Part shown: piece by piece, positions 12,798 through 48,071 of the stretch
How positions within the stretch are numbered: position 1 is the first letter of the stretch
Layout of the letters: each line of letters starts with the position of its first letter
IMG/VR virus record: IMGVR_UViG_3300022927_001625
Coordinates: 1-64,000 of that record
DNA from: a virus
Reading direction: 5' to 3' (one strand)
Length of the DNA stretch: 64,000 bases
The notes under the pieces: model-generated
Told to the model about the DNA's origin: nothing
Database searches by the model: none
What the model saw: the letters and a program-made list of their open reading frames with translations, nothing else
Program-made: the position numbers and the translations under genes

Positions 12798-13463
12798 ATG
12801 AGCACTCTTACACTATTCACATCTGGTAGTACCGACGAACCAAAAGAGGTTAAACATTCTTGGGATTATATAAAAGAATGTGCAACCAAAAGTATAAAAG
12901 AAATTGGACTTACCAAAGACGATATAGTACTCGATGTGTTCCCTGCAAACACTATTGCCCACTACACAATCACCGCTCTTCCTGCGTTTTTAAGCGGCGC
13001 ACAGCACGTTTCTAGCAACTTTAGTACCTACACCTACCCTGAACTGTTTAACCGCGTTAAACCGACGGTTATAGCGTTAATACCGCGGCATTTAGAACTA
13101 TTAAGTAACACTAAAGCATTTAAACAGTTAGATATGAGCAGTGTACGTTATATGGTTACAGGTAGTTCCAAAATAGAACAAAGTTTTATAGATGCGTTTA
13201 GAGAACGTGGTGTCCAAACTGTAGCAAATTGGTATGGTATGACTGAGTTTCCTCCACCGGTAATGATTGGTTATAACAGTACATCATTTGATTTAAATAC
13301 CATAAAAGATGATCATGTGATGTTTTATCCAATTAGTTTCAGTAGTTTACATGAGTGTTATATAAACGGAAAAGCAACAGGAGATCTGTTTGAAATGAAC
13401 CCTGTAAGATTTGTTAAGAGAGCAAAAGAAACAAATGGACAAACTTGGAAAACTAAAGTTTAG
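12798..13463 (+). CDS. minimal AMP-forming adenylation enzyme (ANL fold)
   Basis: A 221-residue protein related to acyl-CoA ligases, which activate a carboxylate with ATP as an acyl-adenylate. It has the phosphate loop TSGSTDEPK at 8-16, TGSSKI at 121-126, NWYGMTE at 144-150, and near the end GDLFEM and a degenerate hinge segment. It is much shorter than family members (about 450-550): the region before the P-loop and the C-terminal lid are missing, so catalysis is uncertain. It overlaps the acyltransferase-like gene that follows, suggesting activation plus transfer (inference). Confidence 0.8.
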   Translation: MSTLTLFTSGSTDEPKEVKHSWDYIKECATKSIKEIGLTKDDIVLDVFPANTIAHYTITALPAFLSGAQHVSSNFSTYTYPELFNRVKPTVIALIPRHLELLSNTKAFKQLDMSSVRYMVTGSSKIEQSFIDAFRERGVQTVANWYGMTEFPPPVMIGYNSTSFDLNTIKDDHVMFYPISFSSLHECYINGKATGDLFEMNPVRFVKRAKETNGQTWKTKV

Positions 13464-13983
13464 AGCATTAACTAATAATGACAAACCCGCAGTAGAAGAA
13501 TTTTGTAATTCTCAAGACTTCAGTAATAACACATCATTAGAAAAAATGAAATGGGACTGGTGTCCTTTTTGGTGTGCGGCATTTGATGGAGATAAAATTG
13601 TTAGTATTGCTGGTGCACACAAATTACCAGAAGTATCTCCTAATGCTTATAGACTTTTATTTAGAGGCGCACAGTTGCCAGGCTACACACTAGGTGTTGG
13701 ACGTAATATATTTAAAACAGGAATACATTTAAGTTATTTGTTGCCATTACAAATTACTTGGGCAACTAGACAAAACCCAGATGCCGAACTTTACATTACA
13801 ACTAACATCAACAACGACGGTGGTAAAAGTAAACGCATGAACGATACTATGATGCCTATGTTAGCAAAGACTGGCATTTGGAAATTAGAGCAAAGTGCTA
13901 TGCTGTTTTATGTTCCCCAAAGAATATGGAGAATTGATGTTAAGAAGTATGAGGAAGAGCGTAACCGTTGGCTAAACACCTAA
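13435..13983 (+). CDS. GNAT-like acyltransferase candidate
   Basis: A 182-residue protein. The start is the ATG at 13435 (an in-frame TTG at 13411 is possible), inside the end of the adenylation gene. The layout LKFRALTNNDKPAVEEF, then CAAFDGDKIVSIAGA, then a YITTNINNDGGKSKRMND stretch, resembles the GNAT acetyltransferase fold, although the canonical acyl-CoA loop is not clear. It would be a natural partner of the upstream adenylating enzyme. Its last 44 bases overlap the end of the convergent halogenase gene. Confidence 0.6.
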   Translation: MDKLGKLKFRALTNNDKPAVEEFCNSQDFSNNTSLEKMKWDWCPFWCAAFDGDKIVSIAGAHKLPEVSPNAYRLLFRGAQLPGYTLGVGRNIFKTGIHLSYLLPLQITWATRQNPDAELYITTNINNDGGKSKRMNDTMMPMLAKTGIWKLEQSAMLFYVPQRIWRIDVKKYEEERNRWLNT

Positions 13984-15040
13984 AACTATATTCATCAAAG
14001 ATAGTAAACGGTTTCTTTTTAATCTTAATTTCTTTTACTTGATTTTGCCAATAGGGTGTGTCTTTACTTGTTGCTTCGTAGTGCAATGCAAGAAAATCTT
14101 CAATATGCTTTACAACTTTAATCCATTGTCTATTGTAAACTTTTTGTTTGCCGTATAATTTTACTAGCATTTCGATTTGATATTGTATTAACCAAATTGC
14201 TTGTGCTTCTAAAGGCTCTATAAATCCGGCACTTAATCCAATACTTAAAATATTATCTTGATACGGAGTTAAACAGTATTTGCTTTCCCAATGTATTACT
14301 CGCATTTTATCTAGTTCAAGAGTATAAGGACACGTTTCAATAAATTCACGTTTAGCATCTTCAACTGTTTGATGTTCTGTACTAAAGACATATCCATTAC
14401 CAATACGATTTTGTAAGTAAATATTCCACATCCACCCGTTACTCATAGCAGTTGTTTCTGTGTAATATTTTAATTCTTTATCGTAACTAGGTGCTACTAC
14501 TGCACAGTTGTTTTTAAGACGTGTTTTTACATATTCTTTTTTAGGAAATAGTTTATTAAACCCTGTACAATTAATAATTAAATCTGCTTGTAAATCGTCA
14601 ATAGTTTCTAGTGTACGTGTTTCTAATTTAACACCATTTAGTAATGCTACTTTGTCACGCAACATAATACCAAGTTTATTTGCATCTATGTGATAAGCAT
14701 GGCGCCATTTTTTATCTGGTAACTCATAGTTTTCCATCCAACGCATTTGTTCATCGTGTTCTGCTTCATTAAAACAAAAGTGATGGAACCAACTTTCGCC
14801 GTGCCAGTTTTTATGTTTTATTGTGTACTTACGGACAGCATCACAGTTATCAAATAAATCTTGTTCTGTTAAACCACACTCTTGAATAAAGTCATACATA
14901 CTTGGAAGTGTGCTTTCGCCTACACCTATAATAGGTATATCTTGACTTTGAATAACTGTAATATTCCAATCAGTTTTTTTAGAAAGATATGCGGCTGTCA
15001 TCCAACCTGCTGTTCCGCCGCCTACAATAGTTACATTCAT
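13940..15040 (-). CDS. flavin-dependent tryptophan-halogenase family protein
   Basis: A 366-residue FAD-dependent protein. It has the nucleotide loop GGGTAGW at 7-13, the halogenase signature GVGEST at 39-44, and CDAVRKYTIKHKNW at 66-79. K71 there aligns with the catalytic lysine that forms the chloramine intermediate in PrnA-type enzymes. The WxWxIP motif appears as WMWNIY at 203-208, losing the proline. It is shorter than typical halogenases (about 500), lacking part of the substrate-covering region. The substrate is unknown; neighbouring hydroxylases suggest oxidative tailoring. The family assignment is firm, the halogenating activity less so. Confidence 0.87.
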   Translation of the reverse strand: MNVTIVGGGTAGWMTAAYLSKKTDWNITVIQSQDIPIIGVGESTLPSMYDFIQECGLTEQDLFDNCDAVRKYTIKHKNWHGESWFHHFCFNEAEHDEQMRWMENYELPDKKWRHAYHIDANKLGIMLRDKVALLNGVKLETRTLETIDDLQADLIINCTGFNKLFPKKEYVKTRLKNNCAVVAPSYDKELKYYTETTAMSNGWMWNIYLQNRIGNGYVFSTEHQTVEDAKREFIETCPYTLELDKMRVIHWESKYCLTPYQDNILSIGLSAGFIEPLEAQAIWLIQYQIEMLVKLYGKQKVYNRQWIKVVKHIEDFLALHYEATSKDTPYWQNQVKEIKIKKKPFTIFDEYSFRCLANGYALPHTS

Positions 15041-15744
15041 AAAGCAATTATATCCTGTATTTTTGTTTCGTCAACACGAGTAATAAAATGTGCTCTAGGA
15101 GTATCACCAAAATTTTCAGTACCGTGAAAAGCACTGGTGTTTAGAATGTATACTTTACCTACACGCATATTAAATTTTAATTCTCTGTTTTCACCAAAGG
15201 TAAACACCGCTTGTGAATTTGTTCTTAGTGGTATGTGTAACTTCTTAGCATTTGAATCTTTATGTGTTTGAATAGTTGCACTAGGTCCGTGTTCTGTAAT
15301 AATGCACTGCTTAAAACTGTCTTCACCTAACATATCAATTAGTGTATTCATATAGCCAAATCTAAAACGAGGTAACACGTTACACTTTTCATAAAACTCT
15401 GGATCGAGTGTTTCAGGAAACATATCTACATTTGCTTGACTAGGTGGCGGCAGTGGTTCGTATCTTTCTTTAGGCCAAGCAAGAGTATATCCGCTAATTG
15501 GTCCGCAATAGTATCCACAGTAACCTAATTCCATATACTGCTTACTAACTTCAATAGTTAACCGCTCAGGAAAGTTTTGAAAGTCAAAATATTGATAGTT
15601 GTGTTCTTGTTGTATAGTATTATAATAAGATTGCAATTCATAAACATCTAGTTTGACATTTAATTCAATAGCACCCCACGAGTCGTCATTATACAATAAA
15701 TCCATTGTAATATCTTTAGGATCGTAATTTTGTATTACTCTCAT
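15037..15744 (-). CDS. aspartyl/asparaginyl hydroxylase-like 2OG oxygenase
   Basis: A 235-residue protein with a C-terminal double-stranded beta-helix of the Asp/Asn beta-hydroxylase family. Iron ligands are H161-x-D163 and H207, and R217 is the likely 2-oxoglutarate ligand, in the order typical of PF05118. The N-terminal 120 residues are specific to this group. Its stop and the downstream halogenase start overlap (ATGA at 15037-15040), and it is itself coupled to the next oxygenase. It has paralogues at 15741, 16926, 19466 and 20158. Confidence 0.83.
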   Translation of the reverse strand: MRVIQNYDPKDITMDLLYNDDSWGAIELNVKLDVYELQSYYNTIQQEHNYQYFDFQNFPERLTIEVSKQYMELGYCGYYCGPISGYTLAWPKERYEPLPPPSQANVDMFPETLDPEFYEKCNVLPRFRFGYMNTLIDMLGEDSFKQCIITEHGPSATIQTHKDSNAKKLHIPLRTNSQAVFTFGENRELKFNMRVGKVYILNTSAFHGTENFGDTPRAHFITRVDETKIQDIIAL

Positions 15745-16331
15745 ATCTTACCTTCCATTCCTACTACTTCATTCTCTTTATCAATAGGTATCTTAAAAAA
15801 TAAGTGTACTCTATCTGTATCACCTTCGTTGTATGTACCGTGTTTGATATTAGTATTTACTAGAATCATACTTCCGTCTGCTGGCAAAACAAATCTACGC
15901 ATTGGTTGAAATTGAAAATATGCTTTGCTATTAGTTTCAATAGGAATATGTACTTTTAAATAATTATCGCTATCGCTATGAAAGTTAATAAAAGTTCCTG
16001 GAGGGTGTACAACTACACTAAACTGATGTGCAAATGGAAACGCATCTTGTAATTTACGAGCAATGCCAAACATTAATTTAGTATCTTTATAAGGATGCAT
16101 TTTGCGTTCTTCAGTAACATTGTACGGAGGACAAGGTAATGTTAAATCATCAAGATTACTTTGTAATGCCCAACCATAAGCATTGTCAAGTACGTGTCCG
16201 CCAACGCCTTCACTAACATTATCTTTATATCTCCAACACAAGTCTTGGTGACTATTTACTAATTGCTTATAGTAGTCTTGCAATTCATTAATGTCAACTG
16301 TTGTGTTAAGTGTTTTAACTTCTCTTATCAT
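15741..16331 (-). CDS. aspartyl/asparaginyl hydroxylase-like 2OG oxygenase
   Basis: A 196-residue paralogue of the neighbouring oxygenase. It has HSD at 118-120, H164 in NIKHGTYNEG and R174 in DTDRVH, all in the PF05118 pattern. It overlaps the 235-aa oxygenase gene by four bases at one end and the Rossmann-protein gene by 17 bases at the other, so it is part of one minus-strand operon running 20937 to 13940. The substrate is unknown; these enzymes hydroxylate Asp/Asn side chains or small molecules. Confidence 0.83.
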   Translation of the reverse strand: MIREVKTLNTTVDINELQDYYKQLVNSHQDLCWRYKDNVSEGVGGHVLDNAYGWALQSNLDDLTLPCPPYNVTEERKMHPYKDTKLMFGIARKLQDAFPFAHQFSVVVHPPGTFINFHSDSDNYLKVHIPIETNSKAYFQFQPMRRFVLPADGSMILVNTNIKHGTYNEGDTDRVHLFFKIPIDKENEVVGMEGKI

Positions 16332-16929
16332 TGTAGTGATCTATAATCCTTTGTACTTTATTGCGTTTATATTCTTTATGATAACTTTCTGTAAAGAATC
16401 TCATATCAATATTTGACATAATAGGATTCTCAAACCAAAAGTCTAGTACCTTATTTAAATCTGTTTTTTCTAATCCTATAATATTATACTTAGGATCACG
16501 TGTTTCTGTAATATTCAAATGTAATAATTTAGTTGTTTGATTATCCATTTGTTCTAGTTGGATCCATTTACAACGTTGCTTTAATTTATTCTTAACTTCA
16601 ACATAGTTAGGATGATTATCATATCCTTGAGGAACTTCTAAGAATTCACCTGCAATACTTCCAATAGTTAATAAGTAGGGAACATAACCGTAAACGTCAT
16701 TTAAGAAGCGAATTTGATAATCGTTAACACAAGCACTATTGACAAATATATCTGCTGTTCTTGCTATCTCAACACACTTGTCGTAGTCTTTATCAAAATC
16801 ATATCCTGTTTCTCTACTCAATTGTATTACTTCATTACCTTCACTAAAGTAATCATGTAACCAACTGTTCATAGTATGTACACCAGGTTTAATTCCGCTA
16901 TCTCTACCTCCAGTAATTACAACTTTCAT
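16315..16929 (-). CDS. NAD(P)-binding Rossmann protein, SDR-like
   Basis: A 204-residue protein. I chose the ATG at 16929, ten residues inside the longest frame, because AAGGAAG precedes it and it forms an ATGA overlap with the upstream gene. The N-terminus MKVVITGGRDSGI is a dinucleotide-binding strand-loop, followed by ADIFVNSA and LLTIGS at positions expected in short-chain dehydrogenases. A full YxxxK catalytic pair is not evident. It may be a reductase or epimerase-like enzyme in the tailoring pathway, or a non-catalytic relative. Confidence 0.65.
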   Translation of the reverse strand: MKVVITGGRDSGIKPGVHTMNSWLHDYFSEGNEVIQLSRETGYDFDKDYDKCVEIARTADIFVNSACVNDYQIRFLNDVYGYVPYLLTIGSIAGEFLEVPQGYDNHPNYVEVKNKLKQRCKWIQLEQMDNQTTKLLHLNITETRDPKYNIIGLEKTDLNKVLDFWFENPIMSNIDMRFFTESYHKEYKRNKVQRIIDHYNDKRS

Positions 16930-18002
16930 AAGTTTAACTTCCTTACATCTTCTGTCCATACTTTACCATATAAATGTATTCTATCAGTAGACCCTTTGTT
17001 CTCTACACTGTGTGGAACTGTTGTATTAACAAGATATGCCCAGCCGGGTTCCATATGATATTCTTCACCGTCAATTATCCAATTACTATTATTATTTGTG
17101 TGTATAGGAATATGTACTCTAATCTTGTCTGGTGCGTCTTGATGTGTAATTAGTTTAGTACCCGGAGTGTGAATAGTTACTAACCATTTTTTACTACGTA
17201 CAGGTAAACCTTGTACAATGTCTAAAGCATAACCGTCAAAGCACATACGAGGATTTAGATTGTCATCATCATTATCTTTATATTCGTCTTTAGCACACCC
17301 TTGTTCAAATGGCTTAGGGCCTGGCTCATCACTATTCCAACAAAGTGTATAATATGCTGTATCATCCATTAAGCGATGTCCTGTTTTGCCTTCTGGGTCT
17401 GTAATAGGAAATTTCCATATATGATGATTTTCTCCTACAATAAATTTCCAATCACTGTATCTTTCTTCTAAACTATAATACCAATTTTGTATTTTATTAA
17501 TATCAACTGGGAACCATTTTTTAATTTTCCAACCTAACTTTACTTCGTCATGTTTTTCAATATAACGTTTATACCCTGTTGCTTCCTGTAATAGTTTTAA
17601 TACGTGTTGATTAACTAGAGGATTATTTTCTTTTACATTGTTTCTATGTTCATTAATAAACTGTGCAATAGCGGGTGAGCGGGACTGTCCTTCACTACAA
17701 TTAATATGTACTGTTGTGTCATTTGGAATACTGTTAATAAAACTTAACAGTTCTGTGGCTTGCTGTTCTGTCATAGCATTACACCAAACACGTCTGCCAT
17801 CTTCTATGTCTTTCCAACAATCTACTTCTACATCATCAAAAAACAAACTAATAACATTATGATACGCACCTTCAAATAAACGAAAACTTTCTGGTCCGTG
17901 ACTTGTTGACACACTTATAAAATAGTCAGGTGTATTTGCTATGTCAATATTTTTAACATAGTCTAGTATACCTTGTTTAGAATATGTAACTGTTTTAATC
18001 AT
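16926..18002 (-). CDS. fusion: dual-specificity-phosphatase-like domain plus 2OG hydroxylase
   Basis: A 358-residue protein. Residues about 1-145 resemble the tyrosine/dual-specificity phosphatase fold, with the catalytic P-loop HINCSEGQSRSP: C102, R108, a true CX5R motif. Residues about 160-355 are an Asp/Asn-hydroxylase-like domain with H287-x-D289, H331 and R341. The hydroxylase part is closest in layout to the 196-residue neighbour. I know of no standard enzyme with this fusion. It is coupled at both ends: ATGA to the SDR-like gene and an eight-base overlap with the 489-aa gene. Confidence 0.8.
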   Translation of the reverse strand: MIKTVTYSKQGILDYVKNIDIANTPDYFISVSTSHGPESFRLFEGAYHNVISLFFDDVEVDCWKDIEDGRRVWCNAMTEQQATELLSFINSIPNDTTVHINCSEGQSRSPAIAQFINEHRNNVKENNPLVNQHVLKLLQEATGYKRYIEKHDEVKLGWKIKKWFPVDINKIQNWYYSLEERYSDWKFIVGENHHIWKFPITDPEGKTGHRLMDDTAYYTLCWNSDEPGPKPFEQGCAKDEYKDNDDDNLNPRMCFDGYALDIVQGLPVRSKKWLVTIHTPGTKLITHQDAPDKIRVHIPIHTNNNSNWIIDGEEYHMEPGWAYLVNTTVPHSVENKGSTDRIHLYGKVWTEDVRKLNL

Positions 18003-19464
18003 AATGCAAGTGTGTTAGTTTTACACCACTCCTTAATCTTGTGTTCATATCAACTGCTACGTAATCATGTCCATATAAAACTAAATCATCTGGTACACGC
18101 TTTTCAAACTCTAACCACTTTTGTTCTATTACTTCTGGCTCAACATTCCAGTGTAACATTTCACTACTCCAAATGTTAGTAGTCCATAATACCTTTGTAC
18201 CGTGTGTTTTGTTAATTTCATCAAACAGTTTATCGCTTTCGTTTACAATATCAATAACATGAAATTCATGTTTTAATTTTTTGTATCTTTCCCAGAGTCT
18301 TTGAAATGCTAAACTACCACCAAAGTCTTTTAATTCTTGTTCCCAAAACTGTTTATAGTTTCCTCTATATGTAGAACTAAAGTTATAATCTAAGTCGTGT
18401 TCTAATAACCATTTATCTAAATCATAACCGTCCCAAGTTTCTAATAAATGCTTTTTATAGTTTAAACTTGATTTGCACCAATCAAAATAATGTACTGTTG
18501 TACTATTGTGAAACCCGTTAGCATTTAATATAGCAAGAGGTTTAAAACCTGCCGCGGCAGTAAACAAATGATCTATAACTTTTCCATTTGTTCTTACTCC
18601 TTCAGCAGATAGTGTTTCTGTGTTAAACGCATACACTCTGTCTTTTTCAATGTACTCTTGGTACTGTAGTTTTCTAAGCCAGGCTTTTTGCGATTGGTTA
18701 GAAAGTTTATCAATTTTGTTAATGTCTTTATCATACCATACTTCCTCTAACTCTTTTGTATCGCTATAAGGATATAGAAATACTTTACAGTCACGCATAT
18801 CATTATCTAAGTTATCAATACGTATTCCGTTACGACAAGCAATATCAATCCAGTTACTTCCATCAGAAGTTATTTGATATTCTGTTTCACCTTGCGTACC
18901 TTGTATCCAATCAGGCGTATAATCACTGTGTACAGTTTCATTGCTTAATTGATAATTTTGTAGTACAGGTTTTCTATCTTTGAATATTCCCATTTCATCA
19001 AAGGCTGGTTTACCTAACTGTTTCCAAGTTTCTAAATTAACAAATAGATATTGTCTGTGTAAACCTGGATAAGCACCTTTAGTTAGATAGTGCTGTTTTG
19101 TTTTGTCCATAATATGCCCTACAACAAAAAAGTTTGGATTGTTGTCTGCATAATGTAGGCTCTGTGTAATTAAACTAGGACCTCTATATAACAATAAACC
19201 TTGACAAGCAACCATACAATACTTTTTGTTTTTTGCTAGAGCATTTTCTAATATAGTTTCTACACGTTTTTCAAACCCAACAAAAGTACACATACCCATT
19301 TTAATCATACGATTAACATAAAAGTAAGTCATATCAAAACTGCGTTTAGCAACAGTACGACTATCAATATCGCGTGAGATATCTAATATGCCAATAGCAA
19401 CATCATTGGGTACTTTAATTTGTTCCCAATATCTATCTACAGTAATGCTATTCCAATCTTTCAC
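17995..19464 (-). CDS. large conserved-type phage protein of unknown function
   Basis: A 489-residue protein. The N-terminal half has an alternating alpha/beta pattern with segments such as CMVACQGLLLY, FFVVGHIMD and YPGLHRQYLFVNLETW, suggesting a nucleotide- or sugar-binding fold that could be glycosyltransferase-related. No DXD, P-loop or cluster motif is certain. The C-terminal 200 residues are charged and helical. I recall related long proteins in marine phages but no function. It lies within the operon of hydroxylases, one base away from the 231-residue oxygenase. Confidence 0.75.
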   Translation of the reverse strand: MKDWNSITVDRYWEQIKVPNDVAIGILDISRDIDSRTVAKRSFDMTYFYVNRMIKMGMCTFVGFEKRVETILENALAKNKKYCMVACQGLLLYRGPSLITQSLHYADNNPNFFVVGHIMDKTKQHYLTKGAYPGLHRQYLFVNLETWKQLGKPAFDEMGIFKDRKPVLQNYQLSNETVHSDYTPDWIQGTQGETEYQITSDGSNWIDIACRNGIRIDNLDNDMRDCKVFLYPYSDTKELEEVWYDKDINKIDKLSNQSQKAWLRKLQYQEYIEKDRVYAFNTETLSAEGVRTNGKVIDHLFTAAAGFKPLAILNANGFHNSTTVHYFDWCKSSLNYKKHLLETWDGYDLDKWLLEHDLDYNFSSTYRGNYKQFWEQELKDFGGSLAFQRLWERYKKLKHEFHVIDIVNESDKLFDEINKTHGTKVLWTTNIWSSEMLHWNVEPEVIEQKWLEFEKRVPDDLVLYGHDYVAVDMNTRLRSGVKLTHLHYD

Positions 19465-19465
19465 G

Positions 19466-20161
19466 TTAACCTCTATTAGTATAATAACTTTGTCTTAGCA
19501 CATAGAAAAAGTCGCGAATACGTTTACCTAGTTCATAATGAATAATCATATGAATACGAGGCTCATCACTGCGATTCCATACACTGTGTACATTTGAAAT
19601 ATCCATTAAGAACGCACTGCCTTTATCTTCAAACGGTACACGCCCTTGATTTTTCATTACAAACTCGCAACCTTCTGGATTGTTTAAACTGATGTTACAA
19701 ACACTTAAACGTTTTTCCTCATCGGCTCTATCTTGATGCGGAAGTATATATCCACCCGGCTCTAGTAACATAAAACGCACACGATTTAAAAACTCTGCAG
19801 GCCACACATCTGTTAAAAACTTTTTAGTTACAGGGCATTGTTCTGCTACCCAAGTCCAGTCCAACTGTTTGATAGTTTCAGCACGATCGCCATAACTGTT
19901 TAGTGTTTGTGTATCTTCACTAAGTCCGTGTAGTGTAAGACTCTTCCAACCTTCTCCATAGTCAGTTCTGTGATCTTTAAAATATTCAAGTAACGCTTCT
20001 GCCTCAATGTGCATCTCTTTCCAAGGTTGATTGTCTAATGCACTTAATTTAAAAAAAGGCCAGCCACTTTCCATTACAATCCATTTAGGATCGAACTGCT
20101 CTGGATACTTAAATTCGTATTCCTTGTTGTTTTCTTGCCAGTACTGTTCTAGTTCTTTCAA
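19466..20161 (-). CDS. aspartyl/asparaginyl hydroxylase-like 2OG oxygenase
   Basis: A 231-residue oxygenase. The ligands are H142-x-D144 in ILPHQDR, H192 in SNVHSVWNRS and R202 in EPRIHMII. It looks closest to stand-alone bacterial Asp/Asn hydroxylases because of the WPAEFLNRVRFMLLEPGG segment. It is coupled by ATGA to the 259-residue oxygenase. Substrate unknown. Confidence 0.85.
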   Translation of the reverse strand: MKELEQYWQENNKEYEFKYPEQFDPKWIVMESGWPFFKLSALDNQPWKEMHIEAEALLEYFKDHRTDYGEGWKSLTLHGLSEDTQTLNSYGDRAETIKQLDWTWVAEQCPVTKKFLTDVWPAEFLNRVRFMLLEPGGYILPHQDRADEEKRLSVCNISLNNPEGCEFVMKNQGRVPFEDKGSAFLMDISNVHSVWNRSDEPRIHMIIHYELGKRIRDFFYVLRQSYYTNRG

Positions 20162-20947: not shown

Positions 20948-20955
20948 TATTTATC
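20948..20955 (-). promoter_or_regulatory. late-promoter-like box GATAAATA
   Basis: Read on the minus strand, GATAAATA lies in and next to the 16-base gap between the radical SAM gene ending at 20954 and the oxygenase gene starting at 20937. It would drive the minus-strand hydroxylase-halogenase operon. Confidence 0.5.
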
Positions 20956-39011: not shown

Positions 39012-39016
39012 TGTGT

Positions 39017-41239: not shown

Positions 41240-41720
41240 AGGGATTATTAGCAAACTTTGGAATGATGATTTCAAAGATTTTAATTACGTTAGACAACCT
41301 ATTACAGGTGAAGAAGCAGATGCTTGGCGTGAACAAGGATATACACATACTACTACAACAGGCAAAATGTATGACAGTAAAAATCCAATGCCTGAATGGG
41401 TAGAAAAAGTTGCATCATTATTAAATTTACATAATCCTGGATTTGTGTTTTATAGAATGGATACATTAGATATTATGCCTACACACGTTGATCATTTTAA
41501 TACATATTGTCGTGTGTTTAATCAAGAACGAAAAAATGTAAGACGTGCTATTGTATTTTTAGAAGATTGGAAACCAGGTCATTACTTTGAAGTAGAAGGT
41601 ATTGGTGTTGTAAACTATAAAGCAGGAGAATATGTTTTATGGGATGCCGATGCTCCACACGCCGCAAGTAACATTGGCGTAGATCCAAGATACACTTTAC
41701 AAATTACAGGAAGTTACTAA
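41229..41720 (+). CDS. aspartyl/asparaginyl hydroxylase-like 2OG oxygenase
   Basis: A 163-residue single-domain oxygenase. H86-x-D88 in MPTHVDHF, H144 in DAPHAASN and R154 in DPRYTLQ fit the PF05118 order. It is the shortest member here and lacks the N-terminal extension of the 15037/20158 group. It overlaps the amidinotransferase gene by 11 bases and shares one base with the next start, so it belongs to the same five-gene operon. Confidence 0.82.
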   Translation: MFYRGIISKLWNDDFKDFNYVRQPITGEEADAWREQGYTHTTTTGKMYDSKNPMPEWVEKVASLLNLHNPGFVFYRMDTLDIMPTHVDHFNTYCRVFNQERKNVRRAIVFLEDWKPGHYFEVEGIGVVNYKAGEYVLWDADAPHAASNIGVDPRYTLQITGSY

Positions 41721-42865
41721 TGTTTGTCCAGGACTTATTCTGGAAAAATATTCCACAGAAAAATATACGCAACAAAGATAAAGGAATGTTAACTGAACTA
41801 TTCCGTGAATCTTTATTAAAAGATACAACTCGTCCTACTTTTGTTTACACAGGTACTAATCATATCAAACAGTTTGACAGTTTAGAACTGTCTCCTAAAA
41901 CATATAAAAAATTAAGTAAGGGTGTTGATATCTACTTGTACGAGCCTGTTAGTCCATATATAAAAGATACGATCCATAACAACCATTTCTATAGTGAATT
42001 TAATACATTTGATAATCTTTATGCAGACGAATTAGATAGTATTGTTAATTGGCAACAAAAGAACAGTATTAAAAATATCAATGTATATACAGGAGATTAT
42101 AATATACAAAAATATTATGCTAAAAATTATCCAACATTAAACTTATTTTGCATGGATATATTTTTACGTGATTTCTTTTGTGGTGGTAATACTACACTTG
42201 ATTTAAATTATAATAAAAAATTTATTTGTCCAAACTGGCGTTATACTAAACATCGTCATTTACTATCTGCATTTCTTGTAGACAAAGATTGTTATTTAAG
42301 TTGGAACTTTAAAACTAACTATGAATTATTAATGGACCGCACTTGGATTGAACTAGACAAATGGAGTGGTACTAATTACGAAACAATAATTAAACAAAAT
42401 ATCGATACATTAAATCAAAATATTCCATATGTATTAGATTATAAAAATGCAAAAACAACTGATGCCAGCATGAAGCAATGGCCTGTGTTTGCTCCTCAAG
42501 GTAGAGGACTAGAAGCATTTTATTTAGATAGTATGTGTGCTATTGTTAACGAAACACGTTTTGCACAACCTACTGCTAACTTTAGTGAAAAAACATTTAA
42601 TGCAATGTTATATGGTAGACCGTTTGTTATGGTTGGACCGCCGCATACTTTAAAATATATTAAAGAACTTGGATTTAAAACATTTGATAGTTTGTGGAGT
42701 GAAGACTACGACAGTATTGAAAATCCTACAGATAGGTTAATTGCTATTTTTGAATTAATTGAACACATTGCTAATAATGATTGTAACTTACAAGATATAG
42801 AAGACGTATTAATACACAATCAGAAATTAGTTAGCAAGTTTTACAAAAATTGTAAAATTCTTTAA
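41720..42865 (+). CDS. glycosyltransferase-like protein of a phage family
   Basis: A 381-residue protein. The C-terminal half carries IVNETRFAQPTANFSEK, then TFNAMLYGRPFVMVGPP and LGFKTFDSLW, resembling the donor-side domain of GT-B enzymes related to fucosyltransferases and matching the protein at 38034. The N-terminal half is a variable, tyrosine-rich alpha/beta domain. No membrane segment. It ends the plus operon, overlapping the convergent radical SAM gene by 35 bases. Confidence 0.62.
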   Translation: MFVQDLFWKNIPQKNIRNKDKGMLTELFRESLLKDTTRPTFVYTGTNHIKQFDSLELSPKTYKKLSKGVDIYLYEPVSPYIKDTIHNNHFYSEFNTFDNLYADELDSIVNWQQKNSIKNINVYTGDYNIQKYYAKNYPTLNLFCMDIFLRDFFCGGNTTLDLNYNKKFICPNWRYTKHRHLLSAFLVDKDCYLSWNFKTNYELLMDRTWIELDKWSGTNYETIIKQNIDTLNQNIPYVLDYKNAKTTDASMKQWPVFAPQGRGLEAFYLDSMCAIVNETRFAQPTANFSEKTFNAMLYGRPFVMVGPPHTLKYIKELGFKTFDSLWSEDYDSIENPTDRLIAIFELIEHIANNDCNLQDIEDVLIHNQKLVSKFYKNCKIL

Positions 42866-44198
42866 ATTCAGGAAACGTTTCTACAAGATTAGTATTGCGT
42901 CTTTTATCGTATTCTCTAAACCATGTATGAAAGTTTTTTCTTCCGTTTAATAGTTTTTTCTCAGAATAGTTTGTTGTTTCCATATAGTCAACTACTCTCC
43001 TAAATCTTTCATATTCCAAACTACTAAATTTAGTTCTGTTTGTGTCATCTAAATTATTAACAATAAACTCTAAGTGCTTTTTCATATAAGGCATGAATTC
43101 ATCTTTAGGAAGTATGTTTATATCAAACTGAATAGGATCAGTTAGGTATGGCGTATCAAACCTTATACGTTGCCATTTTGTTTGTTCATCTGTATTATAT
43201 TTTTTACGCCATTCTAATATTTTTTCTAACAAAGAACTGAAACTTGTAACAGAGAATATGTTAAATGTAATCATAAATGTTACAGGCCAGGGTGTGTTGG
43301 ATAGATAATAATCTAAATTTGTTTCCCAAATTTTTAAATCTAATCCAGTACGTGTATATTCTGCACGGTTACTCCATGTATCTATACTTGTATATAATTT
43401 AAAACTTGCAATACAATTAGTTTCTCTAAGTTCTTTTACGACTTGTGTTAATTTTTTAACTAGTGCAGGCTTTACACCCATATTGCTGTTAAGTTCAATA
43501 TTTAAATGCGGCTTTGGATTTGATTTTAATTCTTCAAAAAGCCTCCAAGTACTTTTATGCATCAAAGGCTCTCCACCTGTAACACGTAAGATGTTCAATG
43601 TCTTACTAACTTCAGGCCACCATTTCCACCATGCTTCTACATAAGGATTAGATTCTTCTTCATATAATTCTATCCAGTCAATATCGTTACGATGTGCTGT
43701 ACTATCTTTATATGGTCCGTGTTGTTTAATTTCGTTCCAATATCTACTACTAAACTTAGGATGACAATAACCGCATTTAAAATTACACTCATTACTAAAG
43801 TTTACTTCAATATATTCGGGATTAATATTATAGTCCCAAGGATTACTTGTAATTTCTTCAATACGTTCTGGTGTATGAATACTTGCTGTTTTAATATGTC
43901 TATCGCTAATGTAATCTTTACCCATACATTCAATGTTCCAACAGTATTGACAACCACTAGGTTTTAATCCTGCTAACATTTCTCTACGTTCGAGTTTCTT
44001 TTGCGGAGTATTATGCAATTGGCTTGGATTATCTATTAATCCTTCTAAAGGAATCTTGTGAGGTGCTGGATGATAACAACTGTGTGTTTCGCCTGTTTGC
44101 AAATAGATAGTAACATGATGCCATTTAGCCAAGCAGAATGAAGGAGAAATTTTATCAATTTCTGGCATTACTGTTTTAATTCTGTCTAATTCACTCAT
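42831..44198 (-). CDS. radical SAM protein with N-terminal Cys cluster domain
   Basis: A 455-residue enzyme from the ATG at 44198, which forms an ATGA overlap with the membrane-protein gene. C22, C41 and C83-x2-C86 precede C138-x3-C142-x2-C145 (CNFKCGYC), with TGGEPL further on. The C-terminal RRNTNLVETFPEF is almost identical to that of the enzyme at 20954, although the two are 22 kb apart. It is the last gene of the minus operon starting at 48412. Confidence 0.88.
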   Translation of the reverse strand: MSELDRIKTVMPEIDKISPSFCLAKWHHVTIYLQTGETHSCYHPAPHKIPLEGLIDNPSQLHNTPQKKLERREMLAGLKPSGCQYCWNIECMGKDYISDRHIKTASIHTPERIEEITSNPWDYNINPEYIEVNFSNECNFKCGYCHPKFSSRYWNEIKQHGPYKDSTAHRNDIDWIELYEEESNPYVEAWWKWWPEVSKTLNILRVTGGEPLMHKSTWRLFEELKSNPKPHLNIELNSNMGVKPALVKKLTQVVKELRETNCIASFKLYTSIDTWSNRAEYTRTGLDLKIWETNLDYYLSNTPWPVTFMITFNIFSVTSFSSLLEKILEWRKKYNTDEQTKWQRIRFDTPYLTDPIQFDINILPKDEFMPYMKKHLEFIVNNLDDTNRTKFSSLEYERFRRVVDYMETTNYSEKKLLNGRKNFHTWFREYDKRRNTNLVETFPEFKEFYNFCKTC

Positions 44199-44440
44199 TG
44201 AATCCAATTCCAAACGCCTCTTATAGCAAGAAGCAAATACATTAACTCCATTAATGCCCTAGGAGTATCACCATCTTTCCATCCCATGTAAATCCATATG
44301 CTACAACTAAAGCAAGCGATGCCCCATCCTAACCATTGTATTGCAGGATTACCGCCACTTAATAAAAATGCACTAACCATTGCTAATACAAATCCTAGCC
44401 AACGCCAACCATCAATATTATGATAATATCTTATTTTCAT
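44195..44440 (-). CDS. small membrane protein, PnuC-like fragment
   Basis: An 81-residue protein with three predicted membrane segments at about 13-29, 34-53 and 62-79. The last, MELMYLLLAIRGVWNW, recalls the repeat of nicotinamide mononucleotide (PnuC) or SWEET-like transporters. It is too short to be a full transporter and may act as an oligomer. It is ATGA-coupled on both sides, between a glycosyltransferase-like gene and a radical SAM gene. Confidence 0.7.
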   Translation of the reverse strand: MKIRYYHNIDGWRWLGFVLAMVSAFLLSGGNPAIQWLGWGIACFSCSIWIYMGWKDGDTPRALMELMYLLLAIRGVWNWIQ

Positions 44441-45336
44441 TTACGCCTAATTACTCTATCGCCGTTTATGTATACTGTCTTAAAAAATTCACTTTGTAAT
44501 TTATCAAACGGAACAACGGCAATAGGTAATTCTAATTCATTAATTAATTTCTTTCCTAGTTCTTTACATTCTTCTGCGACTGTAACAGTCTCGTGTTCTT
44601 TCCATAACTCATTGAGGTAAGTAAAGTCTCTTGTCTGTGTATGATCCCAATCTGTACACATATTCATATATGTTCCAAGTCGTGCGCCATATACCGCCCA
44701 GATACCATTAGGAACATCACAACCTACCATTTGCCAAATAAAAAGTCTGTGTCTATTTTGCCACCATAATGAATTAATATCTTCTGTTGGCTTTCCCCTA
44801 TCCAGACTCATTTTAACGCCTTCACGGAATCCTGCTCTCCATGCTTGATGTGGAGTTGCTGTAATAATACTTTTACTATAGTTTTCATTTAATTGATAAT
44901 AGTTGTCAAAGTAACAAAATTCAATACTTGTTTCATCTGATCCGTCAGTGTTTTCATGTGTCTTCATATTTTTAACAAAATCTTTTGTCCACATCTTTAA
45001 ACTTCCATTGCCGTACATAAGTCCGTTAACATCAATTTTACCACACCAACTAAATTGATAGTCATCGTCTACACCTAACTTATCTAAGTCTAATTCAACT
45101 TGCATAAACTTAGGGTCGACAATAGTGTCACCATCTACAGTTACAAAATGTTTTGTTTCAGATAAATCTGCACAGGCTTTGTGTGCCGCATCTGATCCTT
45201 CTACTCCGTGTACACGTTTTGCCCAAGGTATCTTCCGTTGTAAGTCTGCCCAATTTTCTTCAGCATTAGGCTCATCATAACTTAGAAAGATAATATCAAC
45301 ATCTTGTATCTTAATCTTGTTCAATTTGTATCCCAT
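44437..45336 (-). CDS. GT-A glycosyltransferase-like protein, type 1
   Basis: A 299-residue protein from the ATG at 45336 (the longer frame would reach further into the upstream gene). IIFLSYDEPNAEENW and VTVDGDT at about 65-71 match the protein at 35352, including the AKRVHGVEGSDAAH segment. The DGD motif is the likely metal/nucleotide-sugar site. It begins inside the end of the preceding 191-residue gene (26 bases). Confidence 0.68.
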   Translation of the reverse strand: MGYKLNKIKIQDVDIIFLSYDEPNAEENWADLQRKIPWAKRVHGVEGSDAAHKACADLSETKHFVTVDGDTIVDPKFMQVELDLDKLGVDDDYQFSWCGKIDVNGLMYGNGSLKMWTKDFVKNMKTHENTDGSDETSIEFCYFDNYYQLNENYSKSIITATPHQAWRAGFREGVKMSLDRGKPTEDINSLWWQNRHRLFIWQMVGCDVPNGIWAVYGARLGTYMNMCTDWDHTQTRDFTYLNELWKEHETVTVAEECKELGKKLINELELPIAVVPFDKLQSEFFKTVYINGDRVIRRK

Positions 45337-45886
45337 AACTGTTAAAAAGTTTATTCGTATAAATGTCAAATTCTATTATAGCATCATTATCATTAAATTG
45401 CAAGACTAAATTATTTGACGCTAAATTGAATGTTAATGTTCTGTATAGTACAAATGGGTTATTCTTTTCTACTACACTAAAATGCTTTACTGTTTGTAAT
45501 GTAACGTTGTTTTTGAGCAATGTTTTTGCAAATAAATCACCAAACTTTAATTCCCATTGTTTCTTTTTATAATTTTTACAAATTATAATATCTGCTTTAT
45601 TAGTTTTTTGTATTTTATATAAACTAGAATTAACGTTATATTCGTATTTCTTTTCGTCGTGCTTATTAACCAACTCATACATTGTGCTAGTTGGATTAAA
45701 TTGAACTAAAAAGTGTTTAAAATATACTTTACCTTCAATTAAATCTTTAACTTGCTCATAGTCAACTTCGATACTATGTTTACTTAACGGTGTTGCTCCG
45801 ATAGTTTTTATTACACCACTATCTAAATCAAAATCAAGCCAAGTTTGTGATGGCTTTAACGGAACTTCTTTCCAAGACATTGTCAT
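45311..45886 (-). CDS. hypothetical protein, unknown family
   Basis: A 191-residue, beta-rich, lysine/asparagine-rich protein without cysteine motifs or membrane segments. The start at 45886 overlaps the stop of the oxygenase gene (ATGA). The alternating hydrophobic pattern in the last 80 residues suggests a beta-sandwich. I do not recognise it. It sits between an oxygenase and a glycosyltransferase-like gene. Confidence 0.7.
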   Translation of the reverse strand: MTMSWKEVPLKPSQTWLDFDLDSGVIKTIGATPLSKHSIEVDYEQVKDLIEGKVYFKHFLVQFNPTSTMYELVNKHDEKKYEYNVNSSLYKIQKTNKADIIICKNYKKKQWELKFGDLFAKTLLKNNVTLQTVKHFSVVEKNNPFVLYRTLTFNLASNNLVLQFNDNDAIIEFDIYTNKLFNSYGIQIEQD

Positions 45887-46437
45887 TGACCTTCTCCGTA
45901 GAAGTCAGATATCCCAACTTCAATGTTCCATGAAATAATTGTTTTCATATTTTTTGATTCATTTTGTGGTGCTCTATGTATTAACCAACTTGGAAATATA
46001 ATAATATCACCTTCTGCAACACAAAAAGTTTCTTCATTTAGAGTTGTAGGATTAATCCACTGAGTACGTGGAGTATCTTTAGGCAAATCTAGATAATACA
46101 CACACGTAAAATTTCCGCCATGTGTGTGCCAAGAGTGTTTACTGTTCTGTGCATATTGTTGAAACCAAATTTCAAGCACTTTAAAATTTGCATATCCAAA
46201 CGACTCTGCCCACTTTGCAATATGTTCAGTTAACGGATCTTTTATATCCTTTACCCAACGTCGGTTAGTATTAAATCTTGCAGGTTGCCAATCACAACGA
46301 GTAATATCATTATTAGGTCCGATTAAATGTTCTACTTCTTTTTGTTCATTAATTGCTGTTAATAATAATTCTTTAAGAACACTATGTTCTTTAAATTTCT
46401 GAACTTTAACTGGAAAATTAATTATTGAATCTGTCAT
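45883..46437 (-). CDS. 2OG-Fe(II) oxygenase-like protein
   Basis: A 184-residue protein from the ATG at 46437, which has a good CGGAGAA site; the longer frame extends into the upstream gene without one. The motifs SWHTHGGNFTCVYYL (H104, H106) and IIIFPSWLIHRAPQN (H154) are those of the phage 2OG-FeII_Oxy_5 type, like the proteins at 2492 and 5439 but unlike the HxD members of this island. The distal arginine is replaced by a nearby lysine. Confidence 0.78.
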   Translation of the reverse strand: MTDSIINFPVKVQKFKEHSVLKELLLTAINEQKEVEHLIGPNNDITRCDWQPARFNTNRRWVKDIKDPLTEHIAKWAESFGYANFKVLEIWFQQYAQNSKHSWHTHGGNFTCVYYLDLPKDTPRTQWINPTTLNEETFCVAEGDIIIFPSWLIHRAPQNESKNMKTIISWNIEVGISDFYGEGQ

Positions 46438-47239
46438 AATATTTCTCCGTAAAATCTTTTTCAGTATAATGAAACACTGTGTCCTGCAAATGTCCACCTA
46501 TTTTAAGTTGTTGTTTATCATCAATAAAGCAACTAACACGGTCTTGCCATTTTGTTGTTTGTATTTTCCAACTTTGTGCATACGGTTTCATATGTACAAA
46601 CGTAGGAAATGGTAGTTTAGTATTTGTAACTATATGTTCAACACCTAACACTCTAATTGCTATTGCTGTACATACGTCAACGCTTAAAAACTTTTGCATT
46701 TTCTTAGGTGCATACCTTTCATAATAGTATTCCCAGTTTTTCATTACTTCTTCTAAACAAGTATAAAACTGTTTTGCAAATTCTGACTTTTTAAAATAAT
46801 GTAATGCGACATAAATGTTTGGTAAGTTGTTTGCTTCGAACATTTTTCTATAGTATGTTACATTAAGTTTACACTGTTTATAATCTGTTACATTAGTTGT
46901 ATAAAATACATCATAATTTTGCATTAAATTCCACCAATGTGTTAAGTTATGACATACTATCATGTCTGTATCTAATACAAAAGTTTCGTCATATGGACAA
47001 GCATGATAAATTTTCCATCTGTTTTGTACTTTCCATTTGTGCTCATCTGCTTTATCTTCCCACGGAATAGGTACAATATCGTCAAACAGTCCTTCTTTAA
47101 TCCATTCAGTGTCTTCATTAGTTATTAAGCAAATTTTACTGTCTGGATTAGTTTTTCTAATACTCATTGCTAGTAATTCTGCTTGACGTACATAATTGTC
47201 TTGTTCATTATTTTGTGCAAGAAAAGTAAAGTTAGGCAT
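46418..47239 (-). CDS. GT-A glycosyltransferase-like protein, type 2
   Basis: A 273-residue protein. An N-terminal beta-alpha unit (FTFLAQNNEQDNYVRQAELLA) leads to the DXD motif FVLDTDMIV at 88-95. It ends in a histidine-containing region (KIGGHLQDTVFHYTEK) resembling the metal-binding part of GT8-type enzymes. It is a paralogue of the next protein on the strand (47232), which shares NNEQ.DYV.QA and VLDTD. It overlaps both neighbours. Confidence 0.72.
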   Translation of the reverse strand: MPNFTFLAQNNEQDNYVRQAELLAMSIRKTNPDSKICLITNEDTEWIKEGLFDDIVPIPWEDKADEHKWKVQNRWKIYHACPYDETFVLDTDMIVCHNLTHWWNLMQNYDVFYTTNVTDYKQCKLNVTYYRKMFEANNLPNIYVALHYFKKSEFAKQFYTCLEEVMKNWEYYYERYAPKKMQKFLSVDVCTAIAIRVLGVEHIVTNTKLPFPTFVHMKPYAQSWKIQTTKWQDRVSCFIDDKQQLKIGGHLQDTVFHYTEKDFTEKYYDRFNN

Positions 47240-48071
47240 TAGAAATGTTCCTATTCAAACTAAACTTATTCATTACGTGTAAGTTTAAGCCTTTAGATTT
47301 TAAAAGGGTATACTCTCCCGATCTATTTTGTTTTTCAACTAATAAAGTTAATTCATCATCTTTAATTTTTTCTAAGATATCTTTACCTGTACTATAAATC
47401 ATCTTTCCTGGTAATTCTTTTACGAATCCAGATCCATAGTGTCCTGCCATAATATGTATTGCTATACTAAAAGCAAAGTCATTCCTATAAACACTGTTAG
47501 TAAGTTGATACAAGTTTCGATAGTGTTCATAATTTTCTTTAATATGTGTTATTAGATCAAAGAACACTTTATTAGATTTTGTTTTTCTAAAAAACACAAC
47601 TGTGGCCCAATAAAATTTTATACTAGTTTCACTTATTAAATCAAATTCTTCTGCTTCTCTCCATCCCGAAATATCAAGACTCTTTGAATAAACCATTAAG
47701 TCATTAACACTATTAAAACAACTTAGTAATAAGTCATTGGAAATAATATAGTCAGTATCTAGTACTAGTGTTTGATCGTATGGCGAAACATTATAAGCAT
47801 TATCTCTATTAAAATTCTTAAAGTTAAGAAGTTTGAACGACAACGCTCCATCATGATAGCGTTTTTTATTATATCTAATAGATGAAACTTCTATAATGTT
47901 ATCAAATACTTCATTACCATTATAATATTTTTCAACCCTTGCTTTATCATCAGTAACTAAAGTAGTAGGAAGGTTCATGTACTGTTTTACACGATTGGCT
48001 AGATAACACGCTTGAGCAACGTAATCTATTTGTTCATTATTGTATGCAAATAAAAGAATCCCATTTGTCAT
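47232..48071 (-). CDS. GT-A glycosyltransferase-like protein, type 2
   Basis: A 279-residue paralogue of the protein at 46418: LLFAYNNEQIDYVAQACYLA at 6-25 and LVLDTDYII at 102-110 (D105, D107). It is probably an enzyme using a nucleotide sugar. It overlaps the 46418 gene by eight bases and the 114-residue gene upstream by ATGA, so it lies at the structural edge of the island. Confidence 0.72.
   Translation of the reverse strand: MTNGILLFAYNNEQIDYVAQACYLANRVKQYMNLPTTLVTDDKARVEKYYNGNEVFDNIIEVSSIRYNKKRYHDGALSFKLLNFKNFNRDNAYNVSPYDQTLVLDTDYIISNDLLLSCFNSVNDLMVYSKSLDISGWREAEEFDLISETSIKFYWATVVFFRKTKSNKVFFDLITHIKENYEHYRNLYQLTNSVYRNDFAFSIAIHIMAGHYGSGFVKELPGKMIYSTGKDILEKIKDDELTLLVEKQNRSGEYTLLKSKGLNLHVMNKFSLNRNISNA

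Follow-up and report, generated by a model that had tools for sequence, protein, structure and literature searches.

Gene clusters comparable to the one analysed here have already been published for pelagimyophages and cyanophages, and the island described below, which lies in the tail-fibre region of an uncultured virus predicted to be a Rak2-like jumbo phage, is a variant of them. The host recognition cluster (HRC) of T4-like pelagimyophages is a hypervariable fibre-locus island between VrlC and gp14, with a mean size of 44.6 kb, that carries glycosyltransferases and radical S-adenosylmethionine (radical SAM) cassettes, and modification of the O-chain has been proposed as its function (Zaragoza-Solas et al. 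2020, PMC7029224). The T4-like genome TARA_ERS488813_N000010 contains 12 radical SAM genes, which were read as iron-sulphur cluster metabolism (Nishimura et al. 2017, PMC5332604). Lipopolysaccharide and halogenase/2-oxoglutarate (2OG) clusters of jumbo cyanophages, with glycosyltransferases, a halogenase, 2OG oxygenases and methyltransferases, have been proposed to decorate the capsule or to make a secondary metabolite (PMC7824862). Radical SAM and glycosyltransferase genes that are numerous and unexplained have thus been recorded in environmental phages before (PMC5332604, PMC7029224).

The window, the whole stretch of DNA analysed, consists of bases 1-64000 of the 70,019-bp IMG/VR record IMGVR_UViG_3300022927_001625. 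Between a fibre-like gene, fibre_L (11459-12754, plus strand), and the fibre genes R310 (48508-49440, minus strand) and R492 (49454-50932, minus strand), it contains an island of 42 open reading frames (ORFs) at 12798-48412, in which 99.8% of bases are coding. A preliminary description of the same DNA had placed 41 genes at 12798-48071; its location and content stand, while the count and the right end have been revised. Like the HRC, the island is large and variable and contains glycosyltransferases at a fibre locus, but its backbone is Rak2-like and its borders are R492/R310 and fibre_L/h105; moreover, a graded series of empty, glycosyltransferase-only and full sites, an ATAAATA motif and counterparts in Bdellovibrionota are features for which no equivalent was seen in the accessible text on the HRC (PMC7029224). 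It resembles TARA_ERS488813_N000010 in being part of an environmental phage genome with many radical SAM genes, whereas no island, oxygenase set or glycosyltransferases are described for that genome in the accessible text. The cyanophage clusters belong to another phage lineage, comprise about 8-15 genes and include epimerases, sugar kinases and carbamoyltransferases, and the term 'radical SAM' has no occurrence in the main text of PMC7824862. Pelagibacterales O-chain clusters were considered as a precedent and set aside, the same term being absent from the main text of PMC11898729. In the open-licence literature, no description of this island, of the graded series or of the motif in Rak2-like phages was found.

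The insertion site and its variants

In relatives of the phage, the site may be empty, occupied by a glycosyltransferase nucleus alone, or filled by a full island. It was delimited by left anchors (ATPase, HNH1314, h91, h102, h200 and h105) and right anchors (R492, R699, R689 and R204), and both sides are spanned in 16 of the 19 records fetched, the others being G009, G014 and G018. The anchors are 38.1 kb apart in G005, a near-identical record of 98,707 bp with the whole island and both flanks, and 28.6-48.1 kb apart in 12 other full-island records, where they enclose 33-55 ORFs of at least 80 amino acids (fibre_L and R310 included). At three empty sites (G019-G021), only 1.75-1.87 kb separate the anchors, and the homologues of R492 and fibre_L converge with 65, 66 and 115 bp between their stop codons. 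Radical SAM matches were obtained in 19 of 22 searched records and in none of these three, an absence that covers only the stretches in these short records (19.7-39.6 kb). Seven further records have a glycosyltransferase-only island of 5.8-12.4 kb consisting of R310, h114, GTf, GTe, h191, GTd and GTa, together with one minus-strand ORF of 222-229 amino acids (ThyX-like by eye in the two that were read); L326, one of these, contains an additional ORF and R310 twice. No radical SAM family was matched in these seven islands, and fibre_L is not at their left border. Since the nucleus occurs in seven records in which no radical SAM family was matched, glycosylation may be regarded as the nucleus of the system and the radical SAM layer as an addition. 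A single conserved site with such a natural series makes it possible to separate the core from what was added.

Nine families are present in all 12 island records: R310, h114, GTf, GTe, GTd, rS10, GTa, rS8 and MT. R310 accompanies every full (12/12) and every glycosyltransferase-only (7/7) island and is missing from the three empty sites. Other families vary, with rS7 and rS9 in ten records, rS6 in nine, ox4 and ox6 in eight, Hal in three, and ox5, rS1 and h324 in none. These counts are best matches to a window protein, paralogues may be mislabelled, and the 12 records are not 12 independent events, G006 and G012 being close relatives, as are G003 and G015. The genes are linked and not scattered: the same anchors occur in the same order in G005 and in 12 further records of uncultured viruses. 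The island is not, however, the single indivisible unit that a presence/absence comparison would envisage, which is rejected by the coexistence of empty, glycosyltransferase-only and full versions at one site; what is found at the fibre locus is a common core with swapped modules. The possibility that an assembly artefact joined two genomes at an island edge is negligible. No support for it was found beyond the fact that the record is a 70-kb fragment, and the idea of a chimera was rejected because G005 and the 12 records span the site and three contigs (L082, L083 and L093) cross the left edge with 98-100% protein identity.

In a 57-kb record (G014), a homologue of fibre_L is bordered by a block of 24 island families that run from rS9 to AMPbind as they do in the window, except that Hal is lacking and two ORFs are additional. 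On its other side, this fibre_L homologue has neighbours other than h105/h200, and the R204, ATPase, HNH1314 and h200 families were all absent when the record was searched; two fibre-like proteins of its backbone were searched and gave no match. We take this block as a putative horizontal exchange that included the fibre gene. Beyond the block (L193, 8427-12400), genes that are DnaK-like, Rieske-oxygenase-like and sugar-nucleotide-transferase-like by eye were seen. In a four-marker tree, from which G020, G009 and G018 (R204 only), G014 (no marker) and G005 (the twin of the window) were left out, the empty-site phages are placed beside G011 with a support of 52, and monophyly of the island-bearing phages is not rejected (approximately unbiased test, p 0.125).

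The preliminary description considered the phage T4-like, which was not borne out. The major capsid gene of G005 is of the Gp23 type (PF07068; no match was obtained in the window's own record, a fragment) and has about 68% nucleotide identity to those of Vibrio 2.275.O, PHA46, CBB and Phosso, which are Rak2-like jumbo phages. A search with R204 matched 60 phage records, of which Sinorhizobium phage Phosso and Agrobacterium phage Atu_ph07 were the top matches, and a relative (G001) has a genome length of 267,783 bp. On the basis of the capsid gene, the R204 matches and this genome length, the phage is placed by sequence among the Rak2-like (jumbo) phages rather than the ordinary T4-like phages. 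A megablast search with the first 25 kb of the window matched no GenBank phage. Two contigs of metagenome-assembled genomes titled Neomarinimicrobiota and Pelagibacter (L228 and L248) contain R492-R310-h114-GTf-GTe-GTd-rS10 in the phage order, and the only pointer to the marine habitat assumed in the preliminary description is the title of L228, which names a Tara Red Sea sample. Because of their phage gene order, these contigs are probably mis-binned phage contigs and say little about the host.

Cultured relatives have a smaller cassette at the same fibre gene. In Phosso (PV764938) and Atu_ph07 (MF403008), as in the window, a radical SAM cassette follows the R204-R492 genes: the R492 homologues (E 7.5e-61 and 6.9e-63, respectively) are followed by a cupin-type gene, recognized by Pfam in Phosso and by a 44% identical match in Atu_ph07, and by several radical SAM genes. 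Two of the Phosso radical SAM proteins exceed the Pfam cut-off, one is 0.2 bits short and one is weaker; the Phosso annotation calls four cassette genes and one beyond them radical SAM or oxidoreductase, and the four corresponding proteins of Atu_ph07 are 56-81% identical to those of Phosso. As homologues of h200 (E 2.4e-25) and h102 (E 9.2e-13) flank the far side, the Phosso site matches on both sides; h200 was not found on the far side in the stretches of Atu_ph07 that were searched. Unlike the full island, the cassette is about 8 kb and non-orthologous: its proteins have superfamily-level kinship only to those of the island (best E 1.1e-8), and therefore the content is analogous and not inherited gene by gene. 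No glycosyltransferase was found among ten Phosso proteins compared with Pfam, and 'radical SAM' does not occur in the main texts on Atu_ph07 and Sinorhizobium phage AP-J-162. In Salicola phage SCTP-2, the same anchors are separated by about 4 kb in which no island family was matched. With Phosso and Atu_ph07 in culture, the guess that these genes modify a surface becomes testable.

Enzymes of the island

The island combines a glycosyltransferase nucleus (GTf, GTe, GTd and GTa) with radical SAM, oxygenase and group-transfer modules, inserted between fibre genes. Six glycosyltransferases had been claimed, and no glycosyltransferase family was matched by GTa-GTf in Pfam; four are now supported to varying degrees and two are unproven. 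GTd (44437-45369, minus strand) is predicted to have a GT-A fold: its AlphaFold2 model, with a predicted local distance difference test (pLDDT) score of 87.7, matched 2p72_B in Foldseek (E 6.4e-5) and was aligned by VIA with Z 10.0 over 140 residues at a root mean square deviation (rmsd) of 3.2 A. GTa (35352-36038, minus strand), a homologue of GTd, gains support from the GTd profile, which also finds a GTa-type ORF (E 4.6e-28) in the bacterial genome G027, to which contig L253 belongs. GTe (46418-47239, minus strand) is GT8-like by a profile match to glycogenin 1zct (E 4e-4), and GTf (47232-48071, minus strand) is GT8-like by its DxD motif, its sole support. GTb (38034-38981, minus strand) and GTc (41720-42865, plus strand; no PDB match) are glycosyltransferase-like by eye. 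The N-terminal half of h489 (17995-19464, minus strand; 7/12 island records) is GT-A-like and its C-terminal half uncertain; its AlphaFold2 model (pLDDT 65.5) had no Foldseek match at E of 1e-3 or below, and its best VIA alignment (Z 9.8, 158 residues, rmsd 3.3) is tied among many GT-A folds. Also found with the nucleus are h191 (45311-45886, minus strand; no assigned family), in six of the 12 full islands and all seven glycosyltransferase-only islands, and h114 (48068-48412, minus strand), a small protein conserved in 12/12.

The claim of ten radical SAM enzymes was confirmed: all ten proteins have the CxxxCxxC motif and match PF04055, nine at or over the cut-off and rS2 just short of it (29.2 against 29.5 bits). 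Five also pass the curated cut-off (170) of NCBIfam NF033640, a family of twitch-domain radical SAM proteins, and the other five fail it. The five are rS1 (20954-22249, minus strand; PF04055 at the cut-off; NF033640 E 3.7e-65), rS4 (25090-26124, plus strand), rS5 (28866-29981, plus strand), rS7 (31506-32846, minus strand; E 3.4e-126) and rS10 (42831-44213, minus strand; E 3.8e-91); the remainder are rS2 (22282-23277, plus strand), which has a SPASM domain (PF13186), rS3 (23258-24229, minus strand; PF04055 E 5.9e-10), rS6 (29961-30866, minus strand; PF04055 E 1.4e-10), rS8 (32809-33795, minus strand; radical SAM/SPASM) and rS9 (34400-35374, minus strand). The eight PF04055 matches listed, of nine, in the 267,783-bp genome of G001 all fall within 150.2-171.3 kb, and so the clustering of radical SAM genes is beyond chance.

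Eight 2OG oxygenases had also been reported, and five pass a Pfam cut-off: the Asp/Asn beta-hydroxylase-like ox1 (15037-15744; PF05118 E 4.6e-8) and ox2 (15741-16331; E 1.3e-8), DSP_ox3 (16926-18002; E 1.6e-12), in which an Asp/Asn-hydroxylase-type oxygenase is fused to a phosphatase-like N-terminus (HCSEGQSRS; PF14566 E 0.012, below the cut-off), ox4 (19466-20161; E 7e-15) and ox8 (45883-46497; PF13759 E 1.8e-9), all on the minus strand. Below the cut-off is ox5 (20158-20937, minus strand; PF05118 E 5.3e-4), a family that is present in G014, whereas ox6 (30863-31519, minus strand) and ox7 (41229-41720, plus strand) had no Pfam match and are 2OG-like by motif. The H-x-D/E...H pattern is found in seven of the eight, including ox6 and ox7, and is absent from ox8 even though this protein passes PF13759.

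Among the group-transfer and sugar-related proteins, UGD (36844-38037, minus strand) belongs to the UDP-glucose/GDP-mannose dehydrogenase family (PF00984 E 7.1e-17, PF03721 E 9.1e-16), in agreement with the sugar-nucleotide dehydrogenase proposed earlier. The amidinotransferase AmdT (40271-41239, plus strand; phrog_25854) was likewise upheld: it has no Pfam match and is StrB1-like, its closest relative being the streptomycin-type inosamine-phosphate amidinotransferase 1bwd_A (phmmer E 9e-60). It is in one co-directional run with DegT (39011-39601, plus strand), a short DegT/StrS aminotransferase-like protein (PF01041 E 8.8e-19). WxWxIP is a motif of flavin-dependent halogenases. Hal (13940-15040, minus strand; 366 amino acids), for which a halogenase function had been claimed, is a member of the family (PF04820 E 7.8e-72; PDB match 2wet E 9.3e-45) with the GxGxxG motif present, but its WxWxIP motif is broken and reads WMWNIY. 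AMPbind (12798-13463, plus strand; 221 amino acids) is a partial AMP-binding (adenylating) enzyme (PF00501 E 4.7e-22, covering profile positions 168-330 of 384). The earlier labels for a methyltransferase (MT, 33795-34403, minus strand; PF13649 E 0.011) and a mini kinase (kin, 26111-26566, plus strand; PF01636 E 0.003) are kept as weak ones, both matches being below the cut-offs, and those for two esterase-like enzymes, SGNH1 (36026-36847, minus strand) and SGNH2 (39598-40278, plus strand), were made by eye and gain no backing from Pfam or, for SGNH1, from a PDB search.

The other ORFs are GNAT (13411-13983, plus strand), acyltransferase-like by eye with no family above the cut-off; SDR (16315-16959, minus strand), with a Rossmann-like start by eye and no Pfam match; h324 (24119-25093, plus strand), with no assigned family; kelchA (26529-27770, plus strand) and kelchB (27763-28899, plus strand), repeat proteins that are kelch-like by eye and matched no known family; and h81 (44195-44440, minus strand), a small hydrophobic protein. 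PDB searches yielded nothing useful for GTd (by sequence), h489, R310, SGNH1, kelchA or GTc, and PHROGs searches gave no match for nine of ten proteins in one set and seven of ten in another. In a simple hydropathy scan, the highest 19-residue mean of any island protein was 1.61, and no flippase- or polymerase-like polytopic membrane protein was apparent in the island; in this it differs from a complete O-antigen or capsule locus, which has a flippase and polymerase of its own.

Promoter-like motifs, bacterial counterparts and possible function

In CBB and GAP32, which are Rak2-like phages, the sequence ATAAATA ahead of structural genes has been predicted to act as a late promoter (PMC5259590). 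In a motif-free count of octamers in 251 upstream regions of the present phages, the most enriched were ATAAATAC (40 against 0.59 expected) and GATAAATA (35 against 0.42). The exact sequence TATAAATA was tried as the motif (6/47 divergent gaps, compared with a mean of 0.1 in random windows and 0/64 convergent gaps) and abandoned for the looser ATAAATA, which performed better. When counted within 100 nt upstream of genes whose upstream gap is 20 nt or more, ATAAATA precedes R204 (13/13), R492 (15/15), fibre_L (7/7), R310 (5/7) and h96 (13/13), is infrequent before h102 (2/13), and is not found before ATPase (0/13), HNH1314 (0/13), exo (0/8), folE (0/8) or queD (0/8). It precedes 19 of 79 island genes, compared with 0.8% of random windows. 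A strict matrix retains the motif at 13 of 94 island heads and at 9 of 376 genes in internal positions, and TATAAT is present at 27 of 94 island heads (8.7% at random). The small gene h96 (6056-6388) lies in the left flank among motif-less genes and resembles the fibre genes in this respect.

Counting both strands, ATAAATA occurs nine times in the window, and eight of these copies immediately precede h96, fibre_L, ox5, rS2, rS3, DegT, R492 and R204. Distances to the mechanically called ORF starts are 25-40 nt for the structural genes, namely R204 (25 nt), R492 (31 nt) and fibre_L (11419-11425, plus strand; 40 nt), as against 6-17 nt for the four island genes, which include ox5 (17 nt), rS3 (13 nt) and rS2 (22270-22276, plus strand; 12 nt before the ORF, in the 32-bp divergent gap between rS1 and rS2). 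The copy between GTb and DegT (39005-39011, plus strand) ends on the first base of the first ATG, so that the true start of DegT would be farther downstream if the motif is a promoter. Across the relatives, 5 of 19 island motifs are within 12 nt of the start and the rest are at least 26 nt away. Our claim from these upstream regions is that a minority of island genes share the late-type motif of the fibre genes, which would mean mixed and not late timing.

Counterparts of core proteins were found in bacteria. Of the ten radical SAM proteins, only rS10 was used in a scan of bacterial and archaeal genomes and in a frequency test. The scan found at least 43 loci; among the 43 listed, possibly with a listing bias, 27 bear Bdellovibrio/Bacteriovorax-type contig names and two more are named as Oligoflexia, for a total of 29. 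When genomes were sampled directly, an rS10-type gene (E of 1e-50 or below) was present in 15 of 76 Bdellovibrionota genomes and in 0 of 79 from a control phylum (Fisher 1e-5), with the known positives G022 and G027 and the genome at the centre of the control sample left out, and with phylum labels (Bdellovibrionota, Pseudomonadota) taken from the titles of the sample centres, L246 and L250. In a FastTree phylogeny (printed without support values), the rS10 sequences of phages are intermingled with those of bacteria. Some counterparts are accompanied by others of the core: a 55-kb contig (L253) encodes a GT2 glycosyltransferase alongside rS8, GTd, GTa, MT and rS10, and on L251 two GT2s and an epimerase accompany GTa and a pair of rS10-type genes; no phage fibre families were found near either set. 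Six of the 17 positive genomes were examined for neighbouring GT2 genes: a GT2 was present at a distance of 10 kb or less from 5 of 12 rS10-type clusters (8 of 15 genes), whereas about 5.4% of the genome is that close to one (from rounded sizes; binomial tail 2.7e-4). Twitch-type radical SAM proteins were matched at least seven times on each of two other contigs, titled Bdellovibrionia (L227) and unnamed bacterium (L237), with no phage family matched in their vicinity. The proximity of rS10 counterparts to glycosyltransferases suggests that part of the core serves glycan chemistry, and the taxonomic distribution points to Bdellovibrionota as gene-exchange partners and possible hosts, which is a lead to the hosts of the phage.

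There is perhaps an even chance that the island is a mosaic pathway for building and tailoring a surface glycan, exchanged at the fibre locus, which remodels the surface glycan of the host. In such a pathway, UGD, DegT and AmdT would supply modified (acidic, amino and guanidino) sugars in the cytosol; GTf, GTe, GTd, GTa and perhaps h489, GTb and GTc would join them to a cytosolic glycan or a lipid-linked intermediate; and the radical SAM, 2OG, halogenase-like, acyl-transfer and methyl-transfer enzymes would edit the glycan. The product would rely on host export, since no flippase or polymerase is apparent, and would replace or mask the host surface glycan to which the neighbouring fibres bind. 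Masking could shut out rival phages and, where the genes are expressed late, keep progeny from re-binding to cell debris. In favour of the proposal is also the position at fibre genes, which the island shares with the published HRC (PMC7029224). Three observations weigh against this proposal. Seven of the 12 rS10-type clusters are more than 10 kb from any GT2. No sugar pathway is present in full: the Pfam hits of 40 of the 42 island proteins include no epimerase/dehydratase, PfkB kinase or nucleotidyltransferase family, in contrast to P-SSM2-type cyanophage lipopolysaccharide clusters, of which NAD epimerase/dehydratases, PfkB kinases and sugar nucleotidyltransferases are markers. Lastly, decoration of the fibres would account just as well for the location among fibre genes, for the invariable company of R310 and for the late-type motif.

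Decoration of the virion, in which the enzymes would glycosylate or otherwise modify R310, R492 and fibre_L in the cytosol before assembly and thereby alter receptor binding, stability or recognition by host defences, is a serious though somewhat unlikely alternative. R310 is considered a virion protein because the record of its PA5oct homologue (EST35_0123; HMM E 1.5e-42) notes electrospray ionization tandem mass spectrometry, and, as already described, it is found wherever there is a nucleus and not at empty sites. Decoration of fibres would also be compatible with the motif shared by R204, R492, fibre_L and some island genes, with the lack of any strongly hydrophobic island protein, with the 24-family block beside a fibre_L homologue in the different setting of G014, and with the resemblance of h489 to GT-A domains including those of the collagen-modifying LH3 and COLGALT1, though many GT-A folds are tied with these. 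Against it are the counterparts in L253 and L251 with no phage fibre families nearby, the presence of R310 in PA5oct without adjacent island genes, the motif-less majority of island heads, the TATAAT sequences at 27 of the 94 heads, and the closeness of the window's island motifs to ORF starts. Enrichment of R310 in serine and threonine was rejected as a sign of glycosylation, as PA5oct (22.2%) and the window (21.9%) do not differ in this content. The host glycan is favoured over the fibres on account of the bacterial counterparts, and the fibre neighbourhood and shared motif keep the fibre alternative alive. A more elaborate version, in which a radical-SAM-edited, guanidinylated glycan on the phage's own fibres would act as a late-expressed virion code, exchanged along with the fibres and drawn repeatedly from a gene pool shared with predatory bacteria (Bdellovibrionota, possibly as hosts), is rather doubtful, its chances being lowered by the same closeness of island motifs to ORF starts.

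Natural-product loci typically contain genes of the halogenase-like, adenylation-like, amidinotransferase and SPASM/twitch radical SAM types. All are present in the island, and a comparable secondary-metabolite interpretation has been published for a jumbo-cyanophage cluster (PMC7824862). Nevertheless, a pathway for a secreted or intracellular natural product, such as an antibiotic, a ribosomally synthesized and post-translationally modified peptide or a signal, is improbable: no exporter-like hydrophobic protein was seen, the conserved nucleus consists of glycosyltransferases, and the smallest islands contain no other recognized island enzyme. Still more improbable is antiviral or host-takeover chemistry by viperin-like radical SAM enzymes acting against rival phages in the cell. 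Viperin is the best NCBIfam match of rS3 and rS6 (NF038283; E 6.4e-16 and 2.8e-11), but viperin identity was rejected because the scores (58.4 and 43.1 bits) are far from the cut-off of 180 and coverage is partial, and this explanation would leave the glycosyltransferases and oxygenases unaccounted for. The earlier proposal of a dedicated system acting on a glycan, a virion part or a small molecule is thus retained as regards a linked enzyme set and narrowed towards a glycan by the bacterial counterparts near glycosyltransferases and by the StrB1-like AmdT. The island also offers twitch radical SAM enzymes and an amidinotransferase of StrB1-like type, for which a sugar context is likely.

Flanking features

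On the right, R492 is tail-fibre-like (phrog_19602 E 2.9e-13), and an alignment of R310 matched two PHROGs families, each in 1 of 14 members. Between R310 and h114 (48431-48460), a hairpin with a T-run on the minus strand was noticed by eye and is likely to be a terminator that separates the fibre gene from the island operon. The genes R699, R689 and R204 form a conserved fibre/baseplate module (50966-55753, minus strand). Beyond them, an ORF in the structural region extends without interruption from 55775 up to position 70,019, where the record stops and truncates it; it encodes a protein of at least about 4,700 amino acids.

At the left end of the window (317-2492), folE-family and queE-family genes (phrog_2197 and phrog_2076) are found with an ORF that is queD-like by eye, in an order repeated in several relatives; a possible function is 7-deazaguanine modification of phage DNA or of tRNA. 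In Xanthomonas phage XacN1 (L215), annotated glycosyltransferase and carbamoyltransferase genes adjoin the R204 homologue, making it another related phage with sugar-type cargo near the R204 module.

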